Shown here one piece after another: positions 5,740-38,897 of a DNA stretch of 39,080 nucleotides (positions are counted from its first letter, which is position 1; each line of letters begins with the position of its first letter). The notes below the pieces were generated by a model. The model did no database searches and had not been told where the DNA came from. It worked only from the letters and a program-made list of their open reading frames with translations. A program made the translations under genes and the position numbers. Source of the stretch: a virus. Location of the stretch: the IMG/VR virus record IMGVR_UViG_3300027792_000040, positions 1 to 39,080 of that record; one strand, written 5' to 3'.

Positions 5740-6549
5740 ATGAAAACAGAAAGGGGCCAGCAACGACCCGACATAAACAATGAAATAGTGGTTAGCTTAT
5801 ACGACAACGGTAGGCTAACCATGAAAGAAGTTGGTGCGATACTTGGAATATCATCTGATTCGGTTTTAAATAGACTGCATGGTGTTGGAATAAGACTTCA
5901 CACGCGGCACAAAATAAATCATGATGTGTTTAATATTCCAAGCAAAGAAGGTTGTTATTGGGGAGGGTTTATAGCGGCCGATGGATGTATAAATAACAAA
6001 AAAACTGTGGTAACTGTAGAGCTTCAACGATCCGACAAAAAACATCTTGAAAAATTGTGTTTATTTGTTGGGAGAGACAATAAAACGTGGAACAGAGAAA
6101 GAATTAGGGGTAATAAACGTTTAAAGTATTCTACTATTTCGGTTGTTTCTAAAAAGATTGTCTCTGACCTTGAGGTTAATTTTAATATAGTTCCTCGAAA
6201 ATCTATGGTTTTAGACAAACCAAATATACCGGCAAATTGTGTGAATCATTTTATTCGTGGATATATAGATGGAGATGGACACATAGGTTGGCATAACGGT
6301 GCTCCAAGAATAAATGTGGTATCTGGTTCTAAAAAAATATTATACTGGATTAGGGACGAAATAGTTAGTGGTGTCAGTGGGACATTTTGTCCAGCAATTC
6401 TTGCAAGACACAACGGCAGTACTCTTTCCATAGAGTTTGGCGGAAAGAATTCTTATAATATTATCGAATGGTTATATAGTGATTCTACAGAAAGCACCAG
6501 ATTAGAAAGAAAATTCGAAAGAATTACAGAATACTTAAATAAGAGGTAA
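5740..6549 (+). CDS. Free-standing LAGLIDADG homing endonuclease
   Basis: 269 aa. The ATG lies 3 nt after the sheath stop, so translation is probably coupled to it. Residues 13-55 look like a helix-turn-helix (LTMKEVGAILGISSDSVLN). Two LAGLIDADG motifs are visible: GGFIAADG at residues 75-82 and IRGYIDGDG at 172-180, giving probable metal-binding acids D81 and D179. Two motifs in one chain indicate a pseudo-symmetric monomer cutting an asymmetric site. The length suits the family. It sits between sheath and tube, with no intron or intein evidence: the sheath C-terminus is intact and the tube has its own start. Enzymes of this family make a double-strand break in an allele lacking the gene, so it is copied by repair. 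Whether it is still active is unknown; both acidic residues are retained. Confidence 0.88.
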   Translation: MKTERGQQRPDINNEIVVSLYDNGRLTMKEVGAILGISSDSVLNRLHGVGIRLHTRHKINHDVFNIPSKEGCYWGGFIAADGCINNKKTVVTVELQRSDKKHLEKLCLFVGRDNKTWNRERIRGNKRLKYSTISVVSKKIVSDLEVNFNIVPRKSMVLDKPNIPANCVNHFIRGYIDGDGHIGWHNGAPRINVVSGSKKILYWIRDEIVSGVSGTFCPAILARHNGSTLSIEFGGKNSYNIIEWLYSDSTESTRLERKFERITEYLNKR

Positions 6550-6555
6550 ATAAAA

Positions 6556-7197
6556 ATGACAGACTTTCTATCAGCAAGTGGTTTTCCTAGCACTGGAACC
6601 AATATCAATGCAGGGCACCGAACAAACTCTGGCCTTTCTACCCAGATTATTATAAAGGTTTTTAATAGTCCGGTTGGTGCACTTCAAGAATTAACAGCAT
6701 CCCAAAATAGGCCATTAACTAGAATAAAAGAAATAGGTACAGACGGAAATATAGAGATTGTTCCGAGTAGTGCTACTGACTTTAGCTTAAGCGTTCGCAG
6801 AATAGTGTTTGATCAATTGCGATTACCAGAATCATTTTCTCGTGGATTTAGATTCATTAATTCACAAAGAATTCCATTTGATATAGACATAATAGATGTC
6901 AGTGGAACTGAACCAAATGTATCCGATGATGATGGCAACAAGGTTATAATGACGTATAAAAATTGTTGGTTTACCAGATACGATACGCCGTACTCTGCCG
7001 ATAACTACATCATAACAGAAACTGCAGAAATTTGGTGTGAAACAGCCTATGCAGTTCAGCTTGGAAGAGATGGTTCCTTACGCCCTGTGGAACGCCAGGT
7101 TGATAGTGGTGGTGTCGAGGCAGAGGTTAATTCTGGACGTCGTCTTGGATCAATGGATGCAGCTGGTCTTTTGAATTCTTTGTTCAGCGGTGAATAA
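6556..7197 (+). CDS. Tail tube protein
   Basis: 213 aa, start supported by AAGAGG at 6541-6546, which lies inside the last codons of the upstream endonuclease. The protein is beta-rich with the typical tube order: an N-terminal segment, a loop region (VGALQELTASQNRPLTRI), a GTDGNIEIVP strand, VRRIVFDQLRLPESF, and a late strand IITETAEIWCETAYAV that fits the gp19/XkdM-like tube fold. Placement directly after the sheath, and before the chaperone and tape measure, fits contractile tail operons. It forms the rigid inner channel through which DNA leaves. A terminator-like hairpin follows at 7271-7306, as often seen behind highly expressed structural genes. Somewhat longer than T4 gp19 (163 aa), with a Gly/Ser-rich C-terminal tail of about 35 residues. 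Confidence 0.85.
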   Translation: MTDFLSASGFPSTGTNINAGHRTNSGLSTQIIIKVFNSPVGALQELTASQNRPLTRIKEIGTDGNIEIVPSSATDFSLSVRRIVFDQLRLPESFSRGFRFINSQRIPFDIDIIDVSGTEPNVSDDDGNKVIMTYKNCWFTRYDTPYSADNYIITETAEIWCETAYAVQLGRDGSLRPVERQVDSGGVEAEVNSGRRLGSMDAAGLLNSLFSGE

Positions 7198-11751: not shown

Positions 11752-12672
11752 ATGAAGGTTTGTACTAAATGCAAAGAAGAAAAAGATGAATCAATGTTTG
11801 GTAAAAACAAAACAAACAAAGACGGCCTAAACTGTTGGTGCAAAGTTTGTACAAAACAACACAGAGAAGTAAATAGGGAAAAAATAGCAGAGTACAAAAA
11901 ACAATACAGCGAAAATAACAAAGAAAAAATTGCAGCACACAAAAAACTATATTACGAGAACAACAAGGAAAAAATTGCAGAGCGAGGAAAACAATATCGT
12001 GAAGAAAATAAAGACACTATTTCAGAAAAGAAAAAGAAATATCAAAAAGAAAACAATGAAAAAATAAAAGAATACTCGAAGAAATATTACAAAAACAATA
12101 GGGATTCAATTTTAGAATGTCGTAAACAATATCGCAAGGATAATAAAGAACAAATACGCGAGTACAAAAAAGAGTATCGCAGAAATCACAAGAAGAGCAT
12201 TTTATTAAGAGACAGGAACTATCGCGACAGCCACAAAAAAGAGGCAGTAATATACCAAAAGCAATATCGTGCATCAAACAAGCAACATGCCAAAGAGTAT
12301 CAAGAAAAATATCACAAGCTTAATGGCAAAAAGATCGCAACATACTGTAGAGAACGACGGTTAAGCGACACCTCCTTTAAGATTTGTTGCAACCTGAGAT
12401 CTAGATTGAATACGGCATTAAAACAAAACTATAAATCTGGGTCTGCAGTTAGAGACTTGGGATGCTCTATTGGAGAACTAAAACTGTACCTTTCTTCTAA
12501 ATTTCAACCAGGAATGACCTGGGAAAACTATGGTAAGTGGCATATAGATCACATCTTACCGCTTTCTAAATTTGATTTAACAGATAGAAATCAACTTCTT
12601 AAAGCCTGTCATTACACAAACCTACAACCGCTGTGGGCCAAAGACAATTTAAAGAAGGGAAATAGGACATAA
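11752..12672 (+). CDS. HNH homing endonuclease with zinc ribbon and ten 15-residue repeats
   Basis: 306 aa. The N-terminal zinc ribbon uses C4, C7, C30 and C33. Residues 48-197 are ten consecutive 15-residue units built on a pattern like YKKQYxENNKEKIAE, with I or V usual at unit position 13 and Y at position 5; they are highly charged and probably form an extended helical array. The C-terminus (about 212-304) is an HNH nuclease domain with IDHILPLS (D266, H267), NLQPLW (N290) and KDNLKKGN (N299). The gene lies 5 nt after the hub-associated gene and 21 nt before the hub gene, both intact, so it is free-standing. A paralogue lies at 19390-20193. Family knowledge: such enzymes nick or cut an allele lacking the insertion. 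The repeats likely set the distance between DNA recognition and cleavage; this last point is inference. Confidence 0.87.
   Translation: MKVCTKCKEEKDESMFGKNKTNKDGLNCWCKVCTKQHREVNREKIAEYKKQYSENNKEKIAAHKKLYYENNKEKIAERGKQYREENKDTISEKKKKYQKENNEKIKEYSKKYYKNNRDSILECRKQYRKDNKEQIREYKKEYRRNHKKSILLRDRNYRDSHKKEAVIYQKQYRASNKQHAKEYQEKYHKLNGKKIATYCRERRLSDTSFKICCNLRSRLNTALKQNYKSGSAVRDLGCSIGELKLYLSSKFQPGMTWENYGKWHIDHILPLSKFDLTDRNQLLKACHYTNLQPLWAKDNLKKGNRT
11893..12342 (+). repeat. Ten 45-nt coding repeats in HNH endonuclease
   Basis: Residues 48-197 of the HNH protein fall into ten 15-residue units with no gaps (10 x 45 nt). Units share a basic start, an aromatic at position 5, Asn/Lys/Glu at 7-12 and a hydrophobic residue at 13. 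The DNA copies have diverged, so the repeat is clearer in protein than in DNA. Confidence 0.85.
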
Positions 12673-19353: not shown

Positions 19354-19389
19354 AATTTTTTACATTTAATGTGGAGTTGGAGCAAGAAA

Positions 19390-20193
19390 ATGAAAATTTG
19401 TAGCAAATGTAAAGCAGAAAAAGAAGAAAGTGCGTTCTGTAAAGATAAAAGTAAAAAAGATGGATTAAATTCTTGGTGTAAAGATTGCGCTCACCAGAAT
19501 CGCGAAAAAAACAAAGATGAACGTCGTCCAAAGAGTAAGAAATATTATGAAGAAAATAAAGAGAGTATTTTGGAAAGAAAAAAAATTTGGCGCATTAATA
19601 ACAAAGAAAAAATTGCCGGCCGCGACAAGCAATATCTTGTTGAGCATAGAGAAAAAATTAACGACAAGAATAGGCGTTGGCGCAAAAATAATCCAGAGAA
19701 ACTAAAAAAATCAAAAAAACTATATTATGAAAATAACAAAGAAGAAATTTTAGCAAATAGGAAACACAATTACAAAGAAAACAATGAAGAAATTAAAAAA
19801 CAACGAAAATTGTGGGATAAACGAAATAGGAAAAATATTACAGCAAAAGAGAAAGAGCGCAGGAAAAACGATATTAATTATAGAATATCATGTAATCTTA
19901 GATCTCGTTTAAATAGTGCATTAAAAAATAACCAAAAATCAGGCTCTGCTGTTCGAGACTTGGGTTGCACTATTGCGGAACTTAAAACTTGGTTAGAGCA
20001 ACAGTTTCAACCGGGAATGACTTGGGAAAATTATGGTGAGTGGGAAATAGACCATATCCTACCGCTTTCCAAATTTGACTTAGGTGATAGAAAACAACTT
20101 CTTAAAGTCTGTAATTGGTTTAATTTGCAGCCACTTTGGGCAGAAGATAATATAAAAAAGGGTAATAAGGTTGACATTATTGAAAATAAATAA
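19390..20193 (+). CDS. HNH homing endonuclease, paralogue with seven 15-residue repeats
   Basis: 267 aa. I choose the ATG at 19390 because it aligns with the paralogue at 11752 (MKICSKCK versus MKVCTKCK) and has GGAG 7 nt upstream; an in-frame ATG at 19369 would add seven residues. The zinc ribbon uses C4, C7, C30 and C33. Seven 15-residue units fill residues 48-152. The HNH domain follows with EIDHILPLS (D221, H222), NLQPLW (N245) and EDNIKKGN (N254). Over the last 92 aligned residues I count 72 identities with the paralogue, against looser similarity in the repeats. It lies between the spike gene and the next baseplate gene, both intact, so it is free-standing. It has six extra residues after the shared KKGN end. 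Probably a mobile gene spreading by cleavage of alleles lacking it. Confidence 0.87.
   Translation: MKICSKCKAEKEESAFCKDKSKKDGLNSWCKDCAHQNREKNKDERRPKSKKYYEENKESILERKKIWRINNKEKIAGRDKQYLVEHREKINDKNRRWRKNNPEKLKKSKKLYYENNKEEILANRKHNYKENNEEIKKQRKLWDKRNRKNITAKEKERRKNDINYRISCNLRSRLNSALKNNQKSGSAVRDLGCTIAELKTWLEQQFQPGMTWENYGEWEIDHILPLSKFDLGDRKQLLKVCNWFNLQPLWAEDNIKKGNKVDIIENK
19531..19845 (+). repeat. Seven 45-nt coding repeats in second HNH endonuclease
   Basis: Residues 48-152 fall into seven 15-residue units without gaps. The array begins at the same residue number as in the paralogue, but is exactly three units shorter. Confidence 0.82.
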
Positions 20194-24061: not shown

Positions 24062-27000
24062 ATGGCTATATTTAAAAGTTTTAATGATTTGGTCGTCTCT
24101 TATATAGAATACCTTAGGTTGGTACAGCCAGAATTAGATACAAAGCCTGGAACCGTGGCAAGAGATGTATTTATTGATGCACAGGCACAGCAGCTTGCGA
24201 ATTTATATTCTCAATTAAAGTCAATAGCTGACCTTCAGTCACTATTCTCCGCCTCAGGCTCTGATATAGATAAGCTTGCATCAAATTACGGTGCGAGCAG
24301 AATTAGTGGTTCTGCCTCAACAGGAACCGTTGTATTTACCACAAACAATATGGACGTTGACGTACTTATACCAAGAGGATCTGTGGTTACCGCACGAAAT
24401 GGCGTTAATTTTGAAACACTTAGTGATACAATACTTAGGTCTGATAGTGCAAACGTTTATCGCGCAAATGCTGTTAGAATGAGAGCTGATTTGGCTCTGG
24501 CTAGTATTACGGATGAGTTTGCTATAGAAACGACAGTGCAAGCTCTTACTTCTGGGATTTCTGGTAATATAGGAAGATTTTATGTAGTTTCTCATAATAT
24601 AGACAGCATATCTAATGTTACAAATATTTCATCGTTTTCCGGCGGCAATGATTCGGAGAGTGACGATGAGTTTGTTAATAGAATATTAAGCATTTTTTCA
24701 GGAAGCAATACTGGAACAGCATTAGGATATTCTACGGCACTAAGTGTTGTTCCTGGCATTTCTGATTCTGAAATTGTTGTCCCAGGTGATCCACTTCTAA
24801 TAAGAGACGGAACACAAGTTACAACGAACTCTGTGGGCGAACTAGCTGTGTCTGATCCTGGAAGTGGTGGTAAAGTTGATATATATACACTTGGGTCAGA
24901 TTTGGTAAGCGAAATAGATTCGTTTATATATAATGACAAAAGTGGTAACGACGACCCGATCAATACTATAAATGATTTTATATTAGGTCAAAAGGGAGAA
25001 AGCACTACACTTAATGCTGCCCAGAGACGTGTATCTCTCATATCGGCAGATGACTTGCCATATCAACCAATAGATTCTGTTACTGGTGTGTCAGGCAGTT
25101 CTTCTGGATCAAATTTTATAGAAAAATACACAGATACAGACGGTGCAATAAAGGGAAATTATGAGTTAATAAAAGATACTGGAGATTTTGGAGGCAGTCC
25201 GTTTGGTTTTGATAAATTGCACTGGATTTCCAATACAATATCGCTAGATGCAGAAGACGTATCCAAGGGTATTTTTAATGGGTCAGATGGCCTGAGTTTT
25301 ACTGATATCAGCGGAATATCAGAAATAACACAGGATTATTTGGTAACTAATGAAAACCCAATCCTAAGTTCTTCCTCGAGAAGTTCTTTGACTTTAAGAC
25401 ACACTCCAATCAGAAGTGTTAGTCGCATTGTCAATCTTACAACAGGTGAGAGATATCTAGTATCAAACCAAAACCCAGATGGTTCTTCTGGTTCGCTTAA
25501 TGAAACTGGTAGAATAACTATTACCGGTAGTACTCTTCCCGTCAGCACCGATACATTGCAGGTAGATTATACGTGGGTAAAAAAATTCGATAGTAATTTG
25601 GATTTTGATAATATATCCTCATACAATTCATTAAGAACCGCACAAGATTCCGTTGATTGGGGATTTGGTAATTTAGTAAAAGACGAACCGGCCACCATTA
25701 CTAATACTGGTGGAGTGTTTACTGTTTCGGTATCACATCCAGTGTACAGTGTTATTTCGGTAAACATTTTATCTACGTCAACATCTATCGTAAATAATGG
25801 AACAATAAATGTTGGACAGTTGGTTTCAAATGTTATTGATATACGCAGAGTTTCTGACGGAGCAGAACTATTTAATACAGATTCACAGTCCGGCGCACTA
25901 ACTGGAACAAGCTCGATAATATTACCAACAGATTCCTTAGCTGAAGATGGCGATAGTGCTGTTGTGAGATTCAATTCAGTAGATGTTTACTCTCCAGATG
26001 GATATAGTGGAAGTTTTAACGACGCTACCATAACATTGCCGGATTCTGGCTTAATTACAGGAAACGAGAGTGTTTTAGTGAATTACATAGCCGATGTTAA
26101 TACACTGATATCAGAAAGAGAAATATCTACTCTTCCGGCAATTGGGTATCAGAACACATTCTTGGTTGATGGGTCATATACTGGGGAACAACCTACATCG
26201 AATGTGTTTGGATTATCCGGGAATTATACAAAAAACTTAAGACGCGCAGCAACTAATGTAATCGTTAATGCGACATCTATTCCGGCAGAGGGTTCAATCG
26301 TTGTATCTGGAACGGCACTCAATAAAATAGAGGATGCAATAGTCGTTGTTACATCTGGGTCCGGATATCAAGTTGATTTACGATCTGCAATACTATCTGA
26401 TATTAATTCTACATCTGTACCGAACTCTATTGCGATTGCAAGACTTATAAAATTAGAACGGGTTAATGTAAATAGCTCTGGCGTTATACAATCGGTTGAT
26501 AATGTGTATGACACAATTAACTACAAACTTAATGATAATTCATTTGATTTAGATAAATCTTTAAAGAATTCGTCTTTAAATACAACATCAGTGGAACTTC
26601 CGCGCACGACTGGTAACTCGGATGCAATTTTGGTGACTGGTGACATAGTTAGGGTTTCGTTCTATTATACAAGAACCGGTGTCGTAGAGCAATTGTTTTA
26701 TTCTAGGAATGGTGTAAAAATTACAGACAACATATTTTCTTACATAAACAGAATATCTCTTGGGTCTGGGTTTCGAGATGCAACCGGTACACTTCGCGGA
26801 AACATAGAGGTTAAAAATTATAATCAACCAGTTAGCAACACTCCTTATAGTGTAGATTACAATTATATTGCGCCAAAAGAGAATGAAAGAATAACTATCA
26901 CATTTAATTACAATGCAATAGTTAATTCTGCAACAAAAGCTATAGAAAATGTTAGACCAATAACTGCCGACGTTCTTGTAAAATCTGCAATTGAAAAATC

Positions 27001-27289
27001 AATTGATGTAAACATAAAAATTGTTCTTTTGTCTGAATATATTTCTCAAGAACAGACGGTTATACAGGACGCAATAGATGTGGTTACTAATTTCTTAAAC
27101 GCAAGTAGTTTGGGAACGACAGTTGATGCATCAGATATAGTTAATGTTTTGTATTCTGTGAGTGGTATAGACCGTGTCAGTATAATTAGTTTTAGTACCA
27201 ATGGGACCGGAAATGTTTTGAGTATAACGGCAAGTAAGAATCAGTATTTAAGTGCAGGAGCCGTTACTATTCAGGCAGAGGTAAGATAA
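24062..27289 (+). CDS. Baseplate wedge protein, gpJ/gp6-like, with large internal insertion
   Basis: 1075 aa, GAGG (24052-24055) upstream. The N-terminus (FKSFNDLVVSYIEYLRLVQP, then TKPGTVARDVFIDA) and residues about 40-290 match Baseplate_J proteins, including the family pattern GGNDSESDDEFVNRIL near residue 194 and VVPGISDSEIVV near 230. The C-terminal J part is at about 945-1075: NVRPITADVLVKSA, INVKIVLL-like strand (VNIKIVLLSEYISQEQ), GTTVDASDIVNVLYSVSGID. Between them, about 295-940, lie some 640 residues of repeated beta modules with VDYTW, VNYIA and VDYNY strand endings. Usual J proteins have 300-400 residues and T4 gp6 660. It forms the inner wedge ring with the gp25-like protein. The insertion probably faces outward, and its modules resemble those in the following protein. 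Confidence 0.85.
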   Translation: MAIFKSFNDLVVSYIEYLRLVQPELDTKPGTVARDVFIDAQAQQLANLYSQLKSIADLQSLFSASGSDIDKLASNYGASRISGSASTGTVVFTTNNMDVDVLIPRGSVVTARNGVNFETLSDTILRSDSANVYRANAVRMRADLALASITDEFAIETTVQALTSGISGNIGRFYVVSHNIDSISNVTNISSFSGGNDSESDDEFVNRILSIFSGSNTGTALGYSTALSVVPGISDSEIVVPGDPLLIRDGTQVTTNSVGELAVSDPGSGGKVDIYTLGSDLVSEIDSFIYNDKSGNDDPINTINDFILGQKGESTTLNAAQRRVSLISADDLPYQPIDSVTGVSGSSSGSNFIEKYTDTDGAIKGNYELIKDTGDFGGSPFGFDKLHWISNTISLDAEDVSKGIFNGSDGLSFTDISGISEITQDYLVTNENPILSSSSRSSLTLRHTPIRSVSRIVNLTTGERYLVSNQNPDGSSGSLNETGRITITGSTLPVSTDTLQVDYTWVKKFDSNLDFDNISSYNSLRTAQDSVDWGFGNLVKDEPATITNTGGVFTVSVSHPVYSVISVNILSTSTSIVNNGTINVGQLVSNVIDIRRVSDGAELFNTDSQSGALTGTSSIILPTDSLAEDGDSAVVRFNSVDVYSPDGYSGSFNDATITLPDSGLITGNESVLVNYIADVNTLISEREISTLPAIGYQNTFLVDGSYTGEQPTSNVFGLSGNYTKNLRRAATNVIVNATSIPAEGSIVVSGTALNKIEDAIVVVTSGSGYQVDLRSAILSDINSTSVPNSIAIARLIKLERVNVNSSGVIQSVDNVYDTINYKLNDNSFDLDKSLKNSSLNTTSVELPRTTGNSDAILVTGDIVRVSFYYTRTGVVEQLFYSRNGVKITDNIFSYINRISLGSGFRDATGTLRGNIEVKNYNQPVSNTPYSVDYNYIAPKENERITITFNYNAIVNSATKAIENVRPITADVLVKSAIEKSIDVNIKIVLLSEYISQEQTVIQDAIDVVTNFLNASSLGTTVDASDIVNVLYSVSGIDRVSIISFSTNGTGNVLSITASKNQYLSAGAVTIQAEVR

Positions 27290-30200
27290 ATGACTCTTTC
27301 ACCAATTAGAACATCTGAACTAACTGTATCAAGTATTAAAATTATTTTTAATGACGATCTTGATACGAATATAGGTGTTGCCAACATATCTATCTATTCA
27401 GAAATTGACAGCATTTCTAATCCAGAGGTTAGGTCTGTATCTGTAGAAAATGAACAACTGTCTATAACATTTAGTCCCTTATTCCCAAAAGTAAAGTATA
27501 AAATACTTTTCGTTAGCACGGACACACAGTCATTCCAATCAATTAATGGTGAGCCAATAGTTGAGGATGGTGGAAGAAATTCTCTATTTATAGTGAGTCC
27601 TGGGGAAACACAAAACACTATAAGGGATAATGTTTTTTCAGATATATCATCGATATACGATATTGATGGCCAAACTACTGTACGAAGTCTAATAACCACA
27701 CTTGCCGATGAATTGCAGACATCCTCCGACGCAATCAGCACTACCAAATCTGGTAACTATCTATCTCAACAGGTTATAGATGAATTAAAGATTAGAGATG
27801 ATGGCCCTGTCGATAAGCTAGATAATGGGGGGGCTTTTCAAATATTACGTGTTGCCTCCACCCCAACTGGGTTTAGTAAAAATGGAACACTGTTATTCAA
27901 TTCAACCAGGGAACAGACCTTTTCATCAAGAAATGGTATAATAATAAATTCTGCTGTAAGTGATCTTCCGTCTGATCCAATAAGCTTACAGGAAATAGAT
28001 GTAATAAATGAAAAAGTTACCGATAACATAGACCTGCCAAATTATTTTAGCGGACTTTTTGTAAAATTATCATATGGTCCAATAATTAGGGTTGTATCTG
28101 TTGCATTGAAGCGCAACGGTACATACACTGAGTATGATATAGAAAATTTTGGATATACTCTTTTTACAAATTATTATGACACTAGTTCTGCTTCAACAAA
28201 TGTGAATATAGGCAATAATGAGTTTGAGCTGTCTTCATCATCTTTAACCGGAAATACTGGTGGGTTTTTAACTCCACAGGCGGGCGACGAATTATATGTA
28301 TCCTATACTTACAAAAGACTTGGTAGAAATATAGATGGCGACTCAATTGAATTAAGCAGAGTTAAAAATGTTGTCAGAGAGGCTGCTCCAGCAATCGTGA
28401 ACATATTTTCACTAGATTATGCCCCAATAGTTAATTCTTCTGGTATCATATTTGAAACAGGAGGTGTTACGTTTTATAACACGATAGCATACGATGGCCA
28501 TCCAGCACTAACATACGACCACCCAGCATTTATAAGAGAGATACCATATAATCTTTTGCATCTTCCAGAACAAGCCGGAGAGTATTCTGTAGATTACTCA
28601 AGTGGGAGTGTTATAGTTTATGGCGAGGATGAAACCAACAAAGGAACAGGATTAAATCCACCTGTTGCATCCTATTCTTATAAACACATTTTTGATAACA
28701 CAATTGACTATACATTCGATAGTGATAATTCATCATTATCATTGAATTCTACAAGGGAAATAGATGGTCTTGATGCAACAATATCGTTTAATTATGAAGA
28801 CACATTTGCAGAGGGAACTGATTTCAGGGTGTTATCACATGTTGAAGTTCTTAATGAGAGGATTCTAAATAAACTAACAGGGTCTTTTGCTCTGGAGACA
28901 CAAAACTTTCCAATAACAGATGTTTTTAGAATATTCAATGAAACAACTGGTGAGATATACTCGCTAGACAGATTTAATGACACAACAGTTTTTTTCAATG
29001 GAACACAGGCACCCAGACAAAAGGACATAGTACGTGAAAGAGCTACATTTGTTCGTGTTCCGCAGGAGATTTTACTTATCTCTGATGAGCTATCAAACAC
29101 AATTGGTTTAACTGTTTTTAAAATAAATCTTGAAAATAATGGAATAGCAGATAGTCACGGAACATTTGTTGGTGCTAACTTTGATACATCTGCATTGTTT
29201 TCAAATGCAGATGTATTTGTTAGAGAATTCTTTTACGAAGATCGTCTGTTTACTAGTGTTGAAACCAATATAGATAGACTACTACAAGTTGGTGACTATT
29301 CGATTGACTATAACAATGGAATTATTTATGTTGCCGTATCTGCATCACAGGATTCAAATATAGGCGATGTTACATATTTGCATAAGAAAATAGATACATC
29401 TAATTCAAATATTTTGGGCGTTAACAATATATATAAAAGCAAGTCAGCACTTCAATCGAATGTAGTAAATTATCTTATCGGCGACATATCTGATACAGAA
29501 GCGGAGGTTGTTGGTCTCGAACAAATTGGTGAAAGATTTATTAATGGCACTTCGTCTAGGGTGTTGGTTGTTGGTGCACATCAGAACGGCGAAGATGGAG
29601 TTACCTCTGAGAACATTTTTACCTCAAATGGTGCTATATTTACAGAAGATGATGTCGGTAGATATCTTACTGTTGGGTCGTCTGTACAACCACCAGTACA
29701 AGAGGTTTTAATAACTGGACTAATTAATATTCATCAAGTACTGGTTTCTCCTGATTTTATCTACTCGGGTGCTGGTAGAGTTTGGTCTGTTGTTGATTTA
29801 TCACCAGGATCGCCAAAAACAATAACTCTTGATCACGACATAGTTTCTGTAAATAATATATACACTGTTTCGCAGCTCGGCACGTTACCATCGTCACTGT
29901 TGGATGGGTATTTTGATATAAATCGCGATACTGTAAGCGGAAATGTAATTACTCTTGGTGACGACAATCCGCTAGAGCTTGGTGCGGCAGTTGTAGTTAG
30001 TTATAATTTTGGAAATATTTTTATTGATTATAAGTATTTGCGCGACAATATTATTATATCTTACGAATATGGCAAAAATTCAATAGATTGGAGTATAAGT
30101 AATTCACTATATAGTGGCCAAGAATATTATGTAACCTACAAATACGGCGCATTACGAAATTCTCTTCTATTAAATTTTGGTTCTTTGACTCAAATACCAC

Positions 30201-33200
30201 AACTTACAAATTTTTCACCAAATCTTAACAGAGAAACATATCGGTCTGTACTGTCGGGAACACTGCAATCATTCATAGAGGGTCCAACAGTAAGGTCAAT
30301 AGAGAGATTGGTAGAATCATTCACTGGAGTAACGCCAGAAATAGAGGAGTCTACGTTTAGTAATTGGGTTGTTGGTAGAGATAAGTTGCATCTAAGAAAA
30401 CCAACCTACTTATCAACACAGTCGTTCGATTTGGGCCGGTTTGATAAAGGTGCCATTATAGACTCCACTAATTTTATTAGTGTTCCGGCACTGTCACATA
30501 TAAAAATTAACGAGGGGACTATATCTGCATGGTTGCGGCCGAACTGGAGTGGCTTGGCGAATGATGCCCAGATAACTTTTGACATTCAAATGGATGGGTA
30601 CTACGATGAGTCAAGAGTATTTATAGGATTCTCTGGTTTTCATCCTGATTCAATTCCCTTTACACTTAATTCGTCTGATGATGATCCCAGCGTAACAAGT
30701 GTTCCGAATGTTTTAGATAGTGAAACTGGATATTTTATTTGGTATGATGAGTTCGAAAAGAAATGGAATATAGTTTGGAGAGAAAACTCATCATTTAATC
30801 ATAATTTTACTGGAACAATATCAACCGATGGTGAATTTTATAGCGTAAATAATTACACTGGGCTAGACGGATATTCCAATAACGAAACCAGTGATATAAT
30901 AACTAGTTCACTGGATTATATAAAGTTTTCTGGGTACATAGATGGTTATGATTCAGGATACTCATCTGATGGTATATCATTTGCATCTGATTTACATCAC
31001 TATATATTCGACATGGCCGCATCACCTAGTGCAAACAGAATGTCATTATTCAAAGATGGGTCTGGATATTTAAATTTCCAGGTATTTGACAATAGAGGAA
31101 TGGATATTGATGGTTTTTCTGGTTTCTATAATGTTTCAAAGGACATAAGCGCTTGGAATGAAGACGAATTGCATCATGTTGCTGTTTCGTGGAGATTTAA
31201 TTCTGACGAAGAAAATGATGAAATGCATTTGTTTGTAGATGGTTCAGAGGTACAAAATCTATTTAAATATGGTGGTAATCCGAAAGCAAGCTCATTATAT
31301 GATTTTGGAAATGTATCAGAGGAAGTTGTGATATCCAGTGCAACAAAACCAATTATAGGTGGTAGCGATGGCTCTACTTATGCTGGGTCTTTTGTGTTTG
31401 TTTCTACTTCTTCAGATTTTTCCACAGATGGCGTTTCTATAGGAGACTCACTATACTTATTGGATGACACAGCAGACGGAACAGGGTCACCAAACTATGG
31501 AACTCCTTATGGAATTACTGGTGTTGGTTCATCGAGCATTACCTTGGACCGTGCTCCAACATTAACGCTTAGTAGTGTAAAATTTAGCGTAAATTCTACA
31601 ACAAAAACCGTAGATACACATGTTAATATTCAGGACTTCATAGTTGTTAAAATTGATGCCGATGGAAATGAAACAGAATTAGCGGGGGTAGATTCTTCTG
31701 ACCCAGATTATTCTACTGTACGCGGAACATACTATAATCATACACTCACAATAAATAATGGAATAGCTATCGGGGATCGTGTTGTAATTAGACCACTTGG
31801 TTTAATATTAAGAAGATGTAAAGATAAAGTTTATGTGTACGGCGGAGGATACGATGAAATTAGATTAAATTCTGCTCCACCAGTTTCGTTGGCTGATGTC
31901 AAAATAACATCCATTGTGCTTGACAAAACAAGCATAAGTGAAGATGGGTACTTTGATTTTGCATCTGGCATAGTTGATGCACAATTGGTTACATTATTAA
32001 CCAGAACGATAAGTGATATGTGTCAACCAAGCAATCAATCTGCTGGCAAAAAATTAGATATCACATTTAGCGGTGATAATTTTAATTATACCTTATCGGG
32101 AAATACCGTTGTCATAAATGGAACAACATATTCAGGGGCAACAACTGAAACCCTATCTTTCACAGAAAGTACAACAACTACTTCTTCACAGTATTGGAAA
32201 ACTATAGAAAATTTAACCATTTCCGCAATACCAATTGATTTAGAGAAAGGGGCCGGAACAGTAGAAATACGTGAATCTATACCAATAACTGTGTCAGAAA
32301 ATAACGGTGATTATGCAGAAATAGTTGATTATGCTAACGGTATATTTAGATTGGAAACATATGGAACTGGTGGAAACCCATATATACTTAATGCTTGTAC
32401 CTATGAGGTTGACTACCCATCTTATTTGAGAGTTCCATTTGATAGTATTCCAGATAAATTTTATATTGGGTGCGACCACAACGAGTCGAATAATTTATCT
32501 GGAACAATAGATGAGTTTAAGATACTTGATTTTATGGCATCGGATACCAGAGTAGGAGAAGAGGTTGTATCAGGCGAATACTCGATAACAACCGATTATA
32601 ATTCATCCAATGAGTCAGAGGAAGACGCAAACACATTACTACTTATGCATTTAAATAGTACTGTAGAAGACTCATCGATTTTTAGAGACAGATTTAATGC
32701 CGGATATGAGGTTTCGTCTAGCATAAACTCTGATTTTGGCATGGCGATTAAATTCGGCAAAAATAATCCTTACATTGTCAACGATGCCTCTATTTTCAAT
32801 ACTGACGAGGGTTCAATAGAGTTTTGGGTTAGTCCTTTTCAAGATTCAATAGGTGATCCAAATTATAGATACTACGTTGATATGACTACCAGTGTAGAAA
32901 TAGAGGTAGAATCAGTTTCAAGGGTGTCAGTAATATCTCCAAGAAGTATAAGGGAAGTGGAAAGCATAAGACTTGTTTCAGATATATATAATACTGGAAT
33001 AAATTATTTTGACGGAGGTTCATTATCTACTGTTGATAATAAAACAATTTCACTCAGTACTCCGCTTCCAGATTACAATACTCCTGTTAGAATTAGATTT
33101 GTTTCATTGGACAACCAGGGAGACCGAGTAAGTATTTTTAGAGACCCAGATGGTAGAGTTAATTTTTTTGTAAAAGCCTCTGGGGTTGAGCACTTACTCA

Positions 33201-33832
33201 GTGTATCTACCGTGTGGGACAGACATACCTGGCACAGAATTATGGTTATGTGGAAGACAAACAGCTCAGATGGCCAGGATAGATTGCGCTTATTTGTGGA
33301 CGGGGAGGAGAGAGGCACAATACGATATGGAACTGGACTCATATATGGAACTGGAGTTATATACGGACAAGAGGAGATTCGTTCTGGAGCAGATAGATTT
33401 TTAGTAGATAATATTGATCTTACAGATGTGTTTTCAACAATATATCTGGGTTCTGATATAACTAGCAATAATGGTGCAAGTGCCAAGATGGATAATATAA
33501 GATTTTCAGAAATTCAACGACTTGAAACCATTAAAGTTGTATCAAGCACAACAATTGATGTCAATTACTATCAGAATACTCTGTTGGCGATTCCGGTAAC
33601 AGAGGATGTATATACTACTAAGATTTTTAATTTTGACGATGACAGTTCTAATGTGATATATTTAGCCACAGTTGTGAATAAAGAACGTGGCATTTTCCGG
33701 TTTAAAGTAAAAGTAATAGATTCGTTTGATAGAGTAATTGGTAATACGGAACTAGAGAACCTTTTGGTAACTCTTATAAATACAATAAAAGCAGCTCACT
33801 GTGAGGCTATAGTTGAGTACATTAGGTGGTAA
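27290..33832 (+). CDS. Giant baseplate wedge/adhesin with LamG-like domains
   Basis: 2180 aa, ATG directly after the stop of the J-like gene. Residues 1-95 look like an Ig/FnIII-type domain. About 100-1010 contains serial beta modules with endings such as YSVDYSSGSVIVYG and DYSIDYNNGIIYVA, like those inserted in the J-like protein. About 1045-1355 begins a LamG/ConA-like domain (FISVPALSHIKINEGTISAW; HHVAVSW at 1295; LFVDGSE near 1315). Its expected last part (FYIGCDHNESNN, then GTIDEFKILDF) appears only at 1724-1745. A second LamG-like domain spans about 1778-2078 (EFWVSPF; WHRIMVMW; LFVDGEE; IYLGSDI; MDNIRFSEI). Residues 2080-2180 are a final alpha/beta domain. The gene after J is usually the next wedge protein (gpI or gp7 role). 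LamG domains commonly bind glycans, so a combined wedge and receptor-binding role is inferred. Confidence 0.72.
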   Translation: MTLSPIRTSELTVSSIKIIFNDDLDTNIGVANISIYSEIDSISNPEVRSVSVENEQLSITFSPLFPKVKYKILFVSTDTQSFQSINGEPIVEDGGRNSLFIVSPGETQNTIRDNVFSDISSIYDIDGQTTVRSLITTLADELQTSSDAISTTKSGNYLSQQVIDELKIRDDGPVDKLDNGGAFQILRVASTPTGFSKNGTLLFNSTREQTFSSRNGIIINSAVSDLPSDPISLQEIDVINEKVTDNIDLPNYFSGLFVKLSYGPIIRVVSVALKRNGTYTEYDIENFGYTLFTNYYDTSSASTNVNIGNNEFELSSSSLTGNTGGFLTPQAGDELYVSYTYKRLGRNIDGDSIELSRVKNVVREAAPAIVNIFSLDYAPIVNSSGIIFETGGVTFYNTIAYDGHPALTYDHPAFIREIPYNLLHLPEQAGEYSVDYSSGSVIVYGEDETNKGTGLNPPVASYSYKHIFDNTIDYTFDSDNSSLSLNSTREIDGLDATISFNYEDTFAEGTDFRVLSHVEVLNERILNKLTGSFALETQNFPITDVFRIFNETTGEIYSLDRFNDTTVFFNGTQAPRQKDIVRERATFVRVPQEILLISDELSNTIGLTVFKINLENNGIADSHGTFVGANFDTSALFSNADVFVREFFYEDRLFTSVETNIDRLLQVGDYSIDYNNGIIYVAVSASQDSNIGDVTYLHKKIDTSNSNILGVNNIYKSKSALQSNVVNYLIGDISDTEAEVVGLEQIGERFINGTSSRVLVVGAHQNGEDGVTSENIFTSNGAIFTEDDVGRYLTVGSSVQPPVQEVLITGLINIHQVLVSPDFIYSGAGRVWSVVDLSPGSPKTITLDHDIVSVNNIYTVSQLGTLPSSLLDGYFDINRDTVSGNVITLGDDNPLELGAAVVVSYNFGNIFIDYKYLRDNIIISYEYGKNSIDWSISNSLYSGQEYYVTYKYGALRNSLLLNFGSLTQIPQLTNFSPNLNRETYRSVLSGTLQSFIEGPTVRSIERLVESFTGVTPEIEESTFSNWVVGRDKLHLRKPTYLSTQSFDLGRFDKGAIIDSTNFISVPALSHIKINEGTISAWLRPNWSGLANDAQITFDIQMDGYYDESRVFIGFSGFHPDSIPFTLNSSDDDPSVTSVPNVLDSETGYFIWYDEFEKKWNIVWRENSSFNHNFTGTISTDGEFYSVNNYTGLDGYSNNETSDIITSSLDYIKFSGYIDGYDSGYSSDGISFASDLHHYIFDMAASPSANRMSLFKDGSGYLNFQVFDNRGMDIDGFSGFYNVSKDISAWNEDELHHVAVSWRFNSDEENDEMHLFVDGSEVQNLFKYGGNPKASSLYDFGNVSEEVVISSATKPIIGGSDGSTYAGSFVFVSTSSDFSTDGVSIGDSLYLLDDTADGTGSPNYGTPYGITGVGSSSITLDRAPTLTLSSVKFSVNSTTKTVDTHVNIQDFIVVKIDADGNETELAGVDSSDPDYSTVRGTYYNHTLTINNGIAIGDRVVIRPLGLILRRCKDKVYVYGGGYDEIRLNSAPPVSLADVKITSIVLDKTSISEDGYFDFASGIVDAQLVTLLTRTISDMCQPSNQSAGKKLDITFSGDNFNYTLSGNTVVINGTTYSGATTETLSFTESTTTTSSQYWKTIENLTISAIPIDLEKGAGTVEIRESIPITVSENNGDYAEIVDYANGIFRLETYGTGGNPYILNACTYEVDYPSYLRVPFDSIPDKFYIGCDHNESNNLSGTIDEFKILDFMASDTRVGEEVVSGEYSITTDYNSSNESEEDANTLLLMHLNSTVEDSSIFRDRFNAGYEVSSSINSDFGMAIKFGKNNPYIVNDASIFNTDEGSIEFWVSPFQDSIGDPNYRYYVDMTTSVEIEVESVSRVSVISPRSIREVESIRLVSDIYNTGINYFDGGSLSTVDNKTISLSTPLPDYNTPVRIRFVSLDNQGDRVSIFRDPDGRVNFFVKASGVEHLLSVSTVWDRHTWHRIMVMWKTNSSDGQDRLRLFVDGEERGTIRYGTGLIYGTGVIYGQEEIRSGADRFLVDNIDLTDVFSTIYLGSDITSNNGASAKMDNIRFSEIQRLETIKVVSSTTIDVNYYQNTLLAIPVTEDVYTTKIFNFDDDSSNVIYLATVVNKERGIFRFKVKVIDSFDRVIGNTELENLLVTLINTIKAAHCEAIVEYIRW
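33325..33360 (+). repeat. Two tandem 18-bp repeats in LamG region
   Basis: ATATGGAACTGGACTCAT (33325-33342) is followed at once by ATATGGAACTGGAGTTAT (33343-33360), encoding YGTGLI-YGTGVI and then YGQE. Fourteen of eighteen or more bases agree, so a recent slippage duplication within a surface loop of the second LamG-like domain is likely. Confidence 0.7.
33775..33782 (+). promoter_or_regulatory. T4-late-promoter-like TATAAATA before dockerin-like gene
   Basis: TATAAATA, the T4 late promoter -10 consensus, occurs in the last codons of the 2180-aa gene, 161 nt before the next start and just ahead of a 111-nt gap. Such octamers arise by chance in AT-rich DNA, and no sigma factor is known here. 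Confidence 0.18.
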
Positions 33833-33943: not shown

Positions 33944-36772
33944 ATGGCTAGGTCTAATTGGTCGAGAGTAAATTTTTTTGATGGTCAAGAGGTTTCTGAA
34001 ACGGACCTCGATGTTGAACAGAGCGCATGGCATAATGGCTTGGCCAATGCCGTAGATTTTTTGGCGGGTAGCGGGGTAGAAAAGGATTCTGCAGTTCAAA
34101 GAGTGTTGTTTGACTCGGATGATGTTCCTGCGTCTATATCTAGTCTGATTTCGTCAACATCATTTGATGGAGAGCCTATATATCCAACAGATGCGTTTGG
34201 CCAGGTTGTTTTTCTGCAGCCATCCGATGCATCTGAGGGAAACCAATTAGAGGTTGAAATATCTGGATCATCATTGGACGGGACTCCAAGTGCCAAGGTA
34301 TTTGTATTTGGTCAGATTTTTGGCGGAACATTTACTCACGAGGTGCTGGTATTTGACAAAAATACATCTATTGTAACCAGGAACTATTTTAATAATATAG
34401 TTTCTATAATGACGCAGGATTTTCTGGGGAACCAAAATACAATAGTGGACGGCGTTGCATCAAGAAACAATGGAGGAAGATTAAGAATTCTTGAAGCTCT
34501 GCCAATGTCACTAACTCACGACACCATAATGGCGGAACAAGTCGCAGAGCCTAGTATGGATTACGTGAATTTTAAACCAGCAACATTATCTAAAACATTA
34601 GATATAGTGTTGGATGAAATAGCTGCTACAGAAGGATTATCAAAAGATGACCTAAGAATAAATGTAACCGCAACCACCACAAGGACACTTCCAATAAATG
34701 AAAGTACCGGAATGATAGTTGGCCAAAAATTTAAGGCTACCACCAACAATATTCAAAAGATTTCAGTGCTGTTGTCTGTTGAAGAAAACACTCTAGCAAC
34801 ACCAGGACAGGAATTTGATTGGTCTGGAGAAATTATCGTTGGTATTAGAGCACTACAAACGACAACCACATGTCCAACCGCAGCAATACCAAACACATCA
34901 ATCGAATTTGATCCTGAATTATATCCGTTGGCCGAAGTTTCTTTTTCGCAAAACGATCTTGAAGACATAGGGGTGATATTAACTGATGAACCCCAAGTAG
35001 TTGATTTTGTATTTACACAGTCTCTGCTGGCAAACCCAAACATAGAACCATCTATTGTTCCTGGAAAATATTATATTCTAACAATACGCAGGTCTGGTGA
35101 TTTGAGCAAAGGTAACATTGTATTGCAGGAGGCAGAGAATACAAATGTTTCCGACACAGACGACATGATGATGTCTGTGTTCTCACAGAATGTTTGGACA
35201 GATATTCCAGAAAGTGACTTGTGGTTTAGAATACACACAGACGCAATAAGAATAACAAGCGGAACAGCATTTGATGGTGGAGTACAAATAACATCAAATA
35301 AAACAAAAAAGAATGATTCGACGGGAGTGCTGGAACCATATGTCAACGGATACTATAATTTACTAGATATATCTAGTTCTGCGAAAAATTATGTGATTGT
35401 ACAAAAATCAACAGAGTTTTCCGATTCAATACCACATCCGTCGACCGGAAACCAAGTGTTTACCAGAATACTTGATGTGCCAGATGTTGTTGTTGTATCA
35501 GAAGATACCCTGACAACATTAATTGACGCAGGAACAGAGCCAATAATTTTGGGATATGCAACTGATACTAATCCAATTGGAAATCCGAGTATTACCGGAT
35601 ACACAGAGTTTCCTGGATTAGCAAGAAGTAATACCCTTACATTGATTAATCCAAGTTCTGATATAACCAATAATAATTTGGTCGGGTCAATACTAACGCC
35701 AAATACTGGTGAGCCAGAATTAAAATACAGAATAATAAAAGTTCAGTCGTACGACGATGCCTACGGTGATATTAATAATGACCTAGGCGTGGACGTATTT
35801 GATGTTTCGCGGGCATTGATTTTGGACGGGTACTCAAAGACATTGGTAGATGGAACAGTATCGTCCGTCGACCAGCAAAGGGCAATTGTAGCCGGCACAG
35901 TAACAATGGAAGAAATCATAAGAGCTGATGTCACTAACGATGGTGAGATAGATATTCTTGATGCACAATTGATACAACAAAACATATCTCTTGGGACATC
36001 ATTTAGTTCTGGTAGCACTTTTAATAGGGTTGTAATAACTGTCGAAAGTCTTACTAGTCCACTTAGCACAACTCCTAATATTATAGGATCAGATAGTTCA
36101 TTTAATGATGTTCCGTTTTCACAGATACAGTTTAGAATAGACTTTGTTCCACTTTGGACACAATCAAACATAACCATAGTGGATTTAAGAAGGTTTGTTC
36201 CGAATACTTTTACACAGTTGGAATCCGATGATATAACTGGAAGCACACCTAATGGCGGAAAGAATGTTGCGTACATTCCAGGTGACTTGTTGCTGGGCGG
36301 AAATCTTCTAACACCAGAGGGAGAATCATACTCTGTTGATTTAGAGGTAAACACGATAACAATAGATTTGCCGGATGGAGATACTCAGGGAGAAGTTGAT
36401 ATATTTACAAACTTTATTAAAAATAAAATGTATTTCTCGGATGGCTCATTGGTAACTGCCGACGCAATAACAGATAATCAAATTAAGGTGTCAGCAGCGA
36501 TTGGTTCACTTGCTAAGAACAACGAGGACTTGGATGGATATGACTTCCAAAGCATAGACGGAGTAACGACAGTTGATACTTCGGTTTCTGTGTTGTATAT
36601 GCAGGAGTTCGGTTTATTGAGAATTAGAGCATATAATATAAAAAATATATCAACTGTCCCGGAACTAAAAACAAAAATTATTCTTACCGTGTTCCTAAAG
36701 AAAGCCGGTTTTGCTAACAGTGAGGTTGAAGTAACACCACAAGAATTAAGCGACATATTAACGGTAATATAA
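33944..36772 (+). CDS. Baseplate/fibre protein with dockerin-like calcium-loop repeats
   Basis: 942 aa, strong AGGAG upstream. The N-terminus (SRVNFFDGQEVSETDLDVEQ) resembles a recurring opening of tail and contractile-injection baseplate proteins (FFxGQ then a D, then EQ). Residues 60-600 are beta-rich. Two canonical 12-residue calcium loops follow: DINNDLGVDVFD (609-620) and DVTNDGEIDILD (662-673), each followed by a hydrophobic helix; a degenerate middle copy KTLVDGTVSSVD lies at 632-643. The spacing and the D-x-N/T-x-D-G-x-x-D-x-x-D pattern match type I dockerin repeats. Residues about 690-942 are again beta-rich, ending LLRIRAYNIKNIS and LKTKIILTVFLKK. It lies between the LamG protein and the glycosyltransferases. 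The role is probably attachment or scaffolding of a host-facing fibre, with calcium needed for the dockerin-like fold; an intramolecular brace is also possible. Confidence 0.68.
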   Translation: MARSNWSRVNFFDGQEVSETDLDVEQSAWHNGLANAVDFLAGSGVEKDSAVQRVLFDSDDVPASISSLISSTSFDGEPIYPTDAFGQVVFLQPSDASEGNQLEVEISGSSLDGTPSAKVFVFGQIFGGTFTHEVLVFDKNTSIVTRNYFNNIVSIMTQDFLGNQNTIVDGVASRNNGGRLRILEALPMSLTHDTIMAEQVAEPSMDYVNFKPATLSKTLDIVLDEIAATEGLSKDDLRINVTATTTRTLPINESTGMIVGQKFKATTNNIQKISVLLSVEENTLATPGQEFDWSGEIIVGIRALQTTTTCPTAAIPNTSIEFDPELYPLAEVSFSQNDLEDIGVILTDEPQVVDFVFTQSLLANPNIEPSIVPGKYYILTIRRSGDLSKGNIVLQEAENTNVSDTDDMMMSVFSQNVWTDIPESDLWFRIHTDAIRITSGTAFDGGVQITSNKTKKNDSTGVLEPYVNGYYNLLDISSSAKNYVIVQKSTEFSDSIPHPSTGNQVFTRILDVPDVVVVSEDTLTTLIDAGTEPIILGYATDTNPIGNPSITGYTEFPGLARSNTLTLINPSSDITNNNLVGSILTPNTGEPELKYRIIKVQSYDDAYGDINNDLGVDVFDVSRALILDGYSKTLVDGTVSSVDQQRAIVAGTVTMEEIIRADVTNDGEIDILDAQLIQQNISLGTSFSSGSTFNRVVITVESLTSPLSTTPNIIGSDSSFNDVPFSQIQFRIDFVPLWTQSNITIVDLRRFVPNTFTQLESDDITGSTPNGGKNVAYIPGDLLLGGNLLTPEGESYSVDLEVNTITIDLPDGDTQGEVDIFTNFIKNKMYFSDGSLVTADAITDNQIKVSAAIGSLAKNNEDLDGYDFQSIDGVTTVDTSVSVLYMQEFGLLRIRAYNIKNISTVPELKTKIILTVFLKKAGFANSEVEVTPQELSDILTVI

Positions 36773-36779
36773 ATAAACC

Positions 36780-38897
36780 ATGACAGAAATTGTTGGTGGA
36801 CACGGCGGCAGGTGGAGGGGCAGGTCTATAAGGCCAATCTTCAAAGATGGGTCGTCCTGCGCCTCTATGCCAAACAAAGATTCAATGATTATGTCTCCAT
36901 GCAATGTGGAGTGTGATTCTGTTTATCAAGTTTCAGTTTGCGCATCAAAAAATGGCGGCAACGGAATTTTGCTGGTGAATTTTTTTGGTGGGCAAAACTA
37001 CGATGGTGCTCCAGCAACGGTCAATATAACAACACAAAACATATCTACCTATAAAGCCACAATTAGATCTCCAAAATTTCCAAAAGGATTACCAATAAGT
37101 TTGAGAATTTGGAAACCGTCCTCGTCCACTGGGAATGTATATGTTAAATTAATTAAAATTGATAAGGTTGTTGTCTCTGCGCAAATTCAACAACAATCTA
37201 GGCCAATTATAAACACAATACCAAAAGTTCCACCTGCGTTGATTAAGAGAGAGGAACCAAAGAAAGTAAAAAGAGAAAGAAAAGAAATAATAGTTAGGCC
37301 AAAAAAGAAACAAGTTGCAATTGTTAAAGAAAAAAAGAAACCGTCTATTAATAAGTTTAGTGACTTGTTGTCTTTTGATACTAGTCTCGTTCCCTTGGTT
37401 TCTATTATTACACCAACTCGCGACGGTAGAAATTTAGTAGAAAGTTGCTACAAGGCAATAAAAGAAAACACCATCTATCCTAATTGGGAGTGGATAATTG
37501 GAGATAGTAATTCACAAGATGGAACGGCAGAATTAATCAAATCCTGGCAAGACCCCAGAATAAAATTAGTGGAAAGAAAAACCACAGAAGGGTCATTTTC
37601 TTCGATAAACAATGAGTTGGTAAAGTATTCAACAGGTGAGTACTTACTGTTTTTGAACGATGACACGCAACCGCAATTTCTGTGGCTATACACTATGGTT
37701 TCAAAGCTTCATAATAGAGAAAACATAGGGGTGGTAGGTGCGCGTCTTTTATACTTAGAAAATAAAATACAGCACGCCGGCGTTGCGTTTATACCACATG
37801 GCCCCGTTAATGTTGGTAAGTCTGTACTTAAGTCTTTGCCGCAAGATTTCCCAAACAACGATAGGTTTTATCAAGCAGTTACGGGCGCTTGTATGTTGGT
37901 GAGAAAAACAGATTTTCTTGCTGTGGGCGGGTTTGATGAAGGATACTATTTTTGTTATGAAGACATAGACCTGTGTTTAAAAATTAATAAACAATTAAAT
38001 AAAAAAATAGTTTATGCTTCGTCCGCAAAAGTATATCATAGGGAGAGTGCCACACAAAAGAAGTTTGGAACTGCTTGTGAAAAACAAAGAAACGGAATCG
38101 CCTTGTTTCGCGCAAGGTGGTCATCATTTGTGAGGTCGGATTTAGTTGAGTTTAGCGGCAACCCAAACGCTGATATTAAGAAAACAGACATATCGTTTGT
38201 TACTTGTGTTAGCAATTTAAATCAGTATAAATCACACGTACTGATGTCGTTGCTGAAAAACACAACAAAGAAAAACTATGAAGTTATTCCAGTACTAAAC
38301 GCCGGCAATAAATACTCAGCGGCCCAAGCATTAAATATTGGAATAAAATCTGCAAAAGGAAATATAATTGTTTTATGCCATCAGGATGTGGTGTTTTTTG
38401 AGAAATGGATAGACAATTTATTTATTAGAATTGCAGAGGTTGAAGGAAAAACAAGCAAGTGGGGTGTTTTGGGAACCGCGGGAATAAATTCTTCTGACAC
38501 CACGATAGGAAGAGTGTATAATATAAAGGGTAAGCTGTCGTGGGCATCAACAACTGACAAAACCATAATGCCGGCCCAAACAGTTGATGAACATTGTATG
38601 GTGATTAAAAAGAACTCTGGGTTGCTGTTTGATGAAAAAACAGTTAAGGGGTTTCATTTTTACGGTGCGGATATTTGCTTGAACGCCAGTATAAATAAGG
38701 GCCTGGTGAACTATGGTATTTTGTGTCCAATAATTCATAATTCCGCTTCTGGTAGTTTAAATATTGGAAAAAAAGAGTTTGAGAGACTTATGGTTGTGTT
38801 TGCAGAGAAATGGAAAAAAGTCCCAGTTATAAGGACACCAACGTCATTAATAAACAGAAAGTCTAAAAAGACATTTTTGAAGTTTAAGAAAAGGTAG
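36780..38897 (+). CDS. Two-domain GT-A glycosyltransferase with N-terminal beta domain
   Basis: 705 aa, ATG 7 nt after the previous stop with no strong ribosome binding site. Residues 1-135 form a Cys-containing beta-rich domain, carbohydrate-binding-module-like in pattern. About 145-195 is a Lys/Arg/Pro-rich linker. The first glycosyltransferase domain (GT2 family, about 205-455) has LVSIITPTRDG, WEWIIGDSNSQDGT, LFLNDDTQ (N293-D295), VTGACMLVRK and GGFDEGYYFCYEDIDLC (E394, D395, D397). The second (about 475-690) has ISFVTCVSN, IIVLCHQDVVFF (H534, D536), DEHCMVIKK and FHFYGADICLN, a pattern of the HQDV type of GT2-like enzymes. It should use nucleotide sugars in the infected cell. Placement behind baseplate adhesin genes suggests glycosylation of virion proteins or of host surface glycans; the acceptor cannot be read from sequence. 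Confidence 0.85.
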   Translation: MTEIVGGHGGRWRGRSIRPIFKDGSSCASMPNKDSMIMSPCNVECDSVYQVSVCASKNGGNGILLVNFFGGQNYDGAPATVNITTQNISTYKATIRSPKFPKGLPISLRIWKPSSSTGNVYVKLIKIDKVVVSAQIQQQSRPIINTIPKVPPALIKREEPKKVKRERKEIIVRPKKKQVAIVKEKKKPSINKFSDLLSFDTSLVPLVSIITPTRDGRNLVESCYKAIKENTIYPNWEWIIGDSNSQDGTAELIKSWQDPRIKLVERKTTEGSFSSINNELVKYSTGEYLLFLNDDTQPQFLWLYTMVSKLHNRENIGVVGARLLYLENKIQHAGVAFIPHGPVNVGKSVLKSLPQDFPNNDRFYQAVTGACMLVRKTDFLAVGGFDEGYYFCYEDIDLCLKINKQLNKKIVYASSAKVYHRESATQKKFGTACEKQRNGIALFRARWSSFVRSDLVEFSGNPNADIKKTDISFVTCVSNLNQYKSHVLMSLLKNTTKKNYEVIPVLNAGNKYSAAQALNIGIKSAKGNIIVLCHQDVVFFEKWIDNLFIRIAEVEGKTSKWGVLGTAGINSSDTTIGRVYNIKGKLSWASTTDKTIMPAQTVDEHCMVIKKNSGLLFDEKTVKGFHFYGADICLNASINKGLVNYGILCPIIHNSASGSLNIGKKEFERLMVVFAEKWKKVPVIRTPTSLINRKSKKTFLKFKKR

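Follow-up and report, generated by a model that had tools for sequence, protein, structure and literature searches.

Dockerins are best known from cellulosomes, where they serve as plugs, and a canonical dockerin has about 22 residues between its loops. The type I and type II dockerins of cellulosomes, e.g., those of Acetivibrio cellulolyticus ScaB (4uyp_B) and Clostridium thermocellum CelS (1daq), consist of two F-hand repeats and carry a calcium loop of the form D-x-N/D-x-D-G-x-x-D/T/S-x-x-D. In the C. thermocellum dockerins, a Ser-Thr pair contacts the cohesin; the two residues are numbered 11 and 12 in PMC4728124 and correspond to loop positions 10 and 11 as counted here. Among phages, the dockerin likeness of single proteins has been mentioned in passing, and a 1332-aa protein of an uncultured Caudovirales phage (A0A6J5RS54) bears the name 'Dockerin domain-containing protein' in UniProt, so the module has already been noticed at least by name. 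In the open-access papers covered, no module of this kind is described for a tail or baseplate protein of a phage, and no study of A0A6J5RS54 was found. In lactococcal phage p2, calcium acts on the baseplate (PMC3499812), a likeness to the present case by functional analogy only.

The window, by which we mean the whole stretch of DNA analysed, comprises 39,080 nucleotides (positions 1 to 39,080 of IMG/VR virus record IMGVR_UViG_3300027792_000040). It encodes a 942-aa tail- or baseplate-associated protein (33944-36772, + strand) with a dockerin inside, two genes 3' of a baseplate J-like wedge protein (24062-27289, + strand). By its profile matches (PF04865, E 5e-22; phrog_6 baseplate wedge, E 2.7e-41), the baseplate J gene anchors the region as baseplate. 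Between the two lies the gene for a 2180-aa protein with lectin-like Laminin_G_3 domains (27290-33832, + strand; E 1.5e-13). The order baseplate J, 2180-aa gene, dockerin gene is fixed: upstream of the dockerin gene, 97 of 100 loci have a homologue of the 2180-aa gene, mostly as its immediate neighbour (six loci have gaps of 574-1333 bases), and the remaining three loci are truncated by the end of their contig. From this gene order, the dockerin protein likely has a tail or baseplate role and may be part of the virion.

Five scans of IMG/VR recovered about 100 relatives. Their contigs range in length from 9 to 481 kb (many exceed 200 kb, many are shorter or cut), and the tail protein is common to many uncultivated, often very large phages. 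After identical and short rows were dropped, the alignment held 101 sequences including that of the window, which form 97 clusters at 90% identity and 76 at 70% identity. The last scan is biased, because its search pattern was taken from the dockerin itself; in the first scan, one pattern (MEEIIRAD) touched the dockerin, and all loci of that scan were recovered by later ones. With the loci of the last scan excluded, 81 relatives remain, which in most cases share 28-36% identity with the window protein. The patterns that retrieved these intact relatives lie outside the dockerin, and the calcium-ligand pattern is retained in both loops of every one (81/81). One further relative (L010, at 6779-6803) has its frame broken at the dockerin start and a degenerate loop 2, which may reflect either a misassembly or true loss of the loop; its ORF is split and it is therefore not among the 81, so that 'every member' here means every intact member. 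A tblastn search of 50,697 phage records, for which the window protein, five of its relatives and one isolated dockerin segment served as queries, found no relative, and none was found among bacterial and archaeal genome contigs. No dockerin was found in Bacillus phage G or in LR745208, with its related baseplate J.

The dockerin module spans residues 607-684 (35762-35995, + strand) and contains two calcium loops with conserved ligand positions: loop 1, residues 609-620 (DINNDLGVDVFD; 35768-35803, + strand), and loop 2, residues 662-673 (DVTNDGEIDILD; 35927-35962, + strand). The initial annotation had placed dockerin-like repeats at 35768-35962, which correctly corresponds to residues 609-673 of the 942-aa ORF. 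Across 97 clusters of homologues differing by at least 10%, Asp occupies positions 1 and 12 of loop 1 in all 97, and position 5 of this loop is Asp or Asn in all 97; in loop 2, position 1 is Asp in 94 and Asn in 3, position 5 is Asp in 91 and Asn in 6, and position 12 is Asp throughout (97/97). Loop 1 of the window has Leu at position 6, where the consensus has Gly. Both motifs, as judged from the alignment, exceed chance expectation, and the module probably binds calcium.

Profile searches agree with this assignment. The isolated 87-aa segment of the window matches Dockerin_1 (PF00404) with 27.4 bits against a Pfam cut-off of 22.9, and a six-frame profile search of the window also places Dockerin_1 above the cut-off; in a Pfam scan of the full-length protein, Dockerin_1 is the sole match (residues 607-681), at 17.7 bits and thus below the same cut-off. 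The profile is matched by 42 of 44 homologous segments (best E 2.2e-14), with scores in relatives reaching 45.4 bits, and in a search with a profile built from the family segments, solved dockerins score E 1e-12 to 1e-5 and EF-hand calcium proteins E 3e-5 and weaker.

The AlphaFold2 model built from 97 sequences has a mean pLDDT of 87, with the dockerin elements mostly at 80-93; a model from 7 close relatives (mean pLDDT 34) was set aside. The module is predicted to run from loop 1 through helix 618-626, linker helix 639-650 and helix 655-661 to loop 2 and helix 671-683. When the whole model was compared to the PDB with Foldseek, no match reached E <= 0.001; the ScaB dockerin 4uyp_B stands at rank 35 and is the sole match of probability 1.00 among the 50 best PDB matches (TM by target 0.67, 88 columns), and the length and nature of this target place the match on residues 607-684. 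The best match of the predicted structure is A0A6J5RS54 (TM by query 0.72, 23% identity, E 6.8e-79), which is longer than the 942-aa window protein and belongs with it to one family of tail proteins; the comparison covers this structure match and the database name. Residues 607-684 are thus modelled as a true dockerin fold, in which a helix follows each of the two calcium loops. The earlier proposal of dockerin repeats in a tail-block protein is borne out by profile, conservation and predicted fold alike: the loops lie within a dockerin fold and their acidic positions are kept.

Two full calcium loops and a degenerate third had been noted, of which the two full ones, at 609-620 and 662-673, stand. 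The third, at residues 632-643 (KTLVDGTVSSVD; 35837-35872, + strand), is a linker segment: it has Lys at position 1, and D636, at position 5, is Ser in close relatives. The inter-loop linker measures 41 residues in the clade of the window against 34 in most members that lack a large insert, and the third motif falls within this stretch, longer by 7 residues and specific to the clade. A three-repeat calcium protein was accordingly rejected, since the ligand positions of the third motif are not conserved and it belongs to a clade-specific linker extension. For the same reason, the loop spacing of 23 and 30 residues proposed earlier is replaced by a single linker of 41 residues between two loops. 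Phage members without the large insert have 34-41 residues between the loops, unlike the canonical dockerin.

The module is best read as a calcium-stabilised clamp that acts in cis, built into the tail or baseplate protein with no plugging into a cohesin, a reading to which we give a probability of roughly 0.6. The module would sit permanently in the middle of the protein between two β strands; calcium binding would fold it, the folded module would fix the relative position of the β-rich parts on either side, and the tail would need it. The module is kept at the same place in all intact relatives found and shows no signs of a cohesin partner, and a calcium-locked structural part is therefore the most likely explanation. 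The embedding is visible at both ends of the model: a β strand at 595-606 (35726-35761, + strand) leads directly into loop 1, and another at 692-702 (36017-36049, + strand) follows the last dockerin helix. Tyr595 and Phe693 are near-invariant: among 76 representatives, residue 595 is Tyr in 72 and Phe in 4, and residue 693 is Phe in 72. Among the options raised by the initial annotation, a calcium-dependent brace is the best supported. If the clamp reading is true, the dockerin fold serves a contractile tail as an integral calcium clamp, free of cohesin-recognition features, and these phages are predicted to depend on calcium for infection or for a stable tail.

The conservation pattern within the module separates the calcium-binding positions from the cohesin-contact positions. 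When variability was ranked over 883 well-filled alignment columns, loop positions 1, 5 and 12 fell at percentiles 0-10, position 3 at 15 and 30, and position 9 at 31 and 50, whereas the cohesin-contact positions 10 and 11 fell at 91-98. The contact pairs of the window are Val-Phe in loop 1 and Ile-Leu in loop 2; unlike in C. thermocellum dockerins, Ser/Thr at both contact positions is rare in the phage family (6/76 representatives in loop 1, 4/76 in loop 2), and a conserved contact pair of the Ser-Thr type was found neither in the window nor among the 76 representatives. The repeats of one protein show no mirror symmetry at positions 10 and 11, with 13 identities observed and 13.6 expected from pairing repeats of different proteins. 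By this alignment, the calcium-held fold is conserved and the cohesin face is not. Variable contact positions would also be expected if the partner differs from phage to phage, so this pattern speaks against one conserved partner, not against any partner.

One rival reading is a joint in trans, in which the dockerin face would bind another tail protein within the virion, attaching fibres or the 2180-aa protein, with a diverged cohesin-like or other β domain as the partner. Dockerins are by nature binding modules, the order with the 2180-aa gene is fixed, and a cohesin-like fold beyond profile recognition is conceivable; still, we consider such a joint unlikely. The phage module shares with cellulosomal dockerins the calcium loop and the profile and fold match, and it differs from them in lying inside a tail protein, in having strands at both ends and in that no cohesin was found: the cohesin profile (PF00963) has 0 matches in 34 phage records including that of the window, a count that a strongly diverged cohesin would escape and that comes from records most of which may be incomplete. 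With a conserved partner, the contact face should moreover be conserved, but positions 10 and 11 rank with the most variable columns. The dockerin-cohesin-like joint suggested earlier therefore has no positive evidence, with no cohesin found in the searched records and contact positions that are variable and not mirrored, and both ends of the module continue straight into β strands with near-invariant residues; a cohesin-type joint is conceivable but lacks support. Nearly all Dockerin_1 matches in the large records fall in the family gene; two weak ones lie elsewhere, at G021:345704-345760 (the record behind relative L175) in an ORF of 235 aa and at G019:205025-205153 (the record behind relative L091) in an ORF of 337 aa.

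Calcium could alternatively act as a switch, bound only once the phage has left the cell or meets the surface of its host, where it would shift tail parts and arm the baseplate. The calcium-triggered baseplate rearrangement of p2 sets a precedent (PMC3499812), and the conserved ligand positions fit a switch; but the p2 case is an analogy only, and we regard this mechanism as improbable. Docking to the host surface, with the phage dockerin binding cohesins displayed by the host, could account for contact positions that differ between phages, as host-specific recognition might produce. However, the module is tethered at both ends within its protein, and its retention across diverse, often very large phages would demand cohesins on all their hosts, which makes this a very poor candidate. 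That the dockerin is a neutral remnant of an ancient capture, a view to which the degenerate loop 2 of L010 might lend something, is scarcely credible: the intact loops of all 81 relatives, at low overall identity, refute it at the level of the whole family.

The family also includes a split form of the module. In 52 of 101 rows (L061 and 51 others), 124-169 residues separate the loops, an extra stretch of about 110 residues between the calcium repeats, and a tree from which the dockerin columns were omitted places this insert as a single change with full support. Gly-Ser inserts have been engineered into a cellulosomal dockerin, between its helices 1 and 3, and studied (PMC4728124), and an insert therefore need not destroy the module. 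We put at about even odds the broader proposal that the dockerin has become fixed as an essential calcium-locked baseplate element in a large group of uncultivated phages, which in one clade stays intact despite a domain between its repeats (a split dockerin). The long-insert clade is a natural experiment on the degree of splitting that a dockerin tolerates.

Several other ORFs surround the genes discussed above. A glycosyltransferase with GT2-type domains (36780-38897) lies directly 3' of the dockerin gene, and an ORF related to it is found downstream in 47 of 100 loci. Two similar ORFs in the tail operon (11752-12672 and 19369-20193), assigned to no family by a Pfam scan, both end in W..YG.W.IDHI.PLS.FD, like HNH homing endonucleases. 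The ORF at 5740-6549, beside the sheath gene, matches LAGLIDADG_3 (E 3.9e-9) and likely encodes a homing endonuclease, and a β-helix protein at 3-1760 is truncated by the start of the window.
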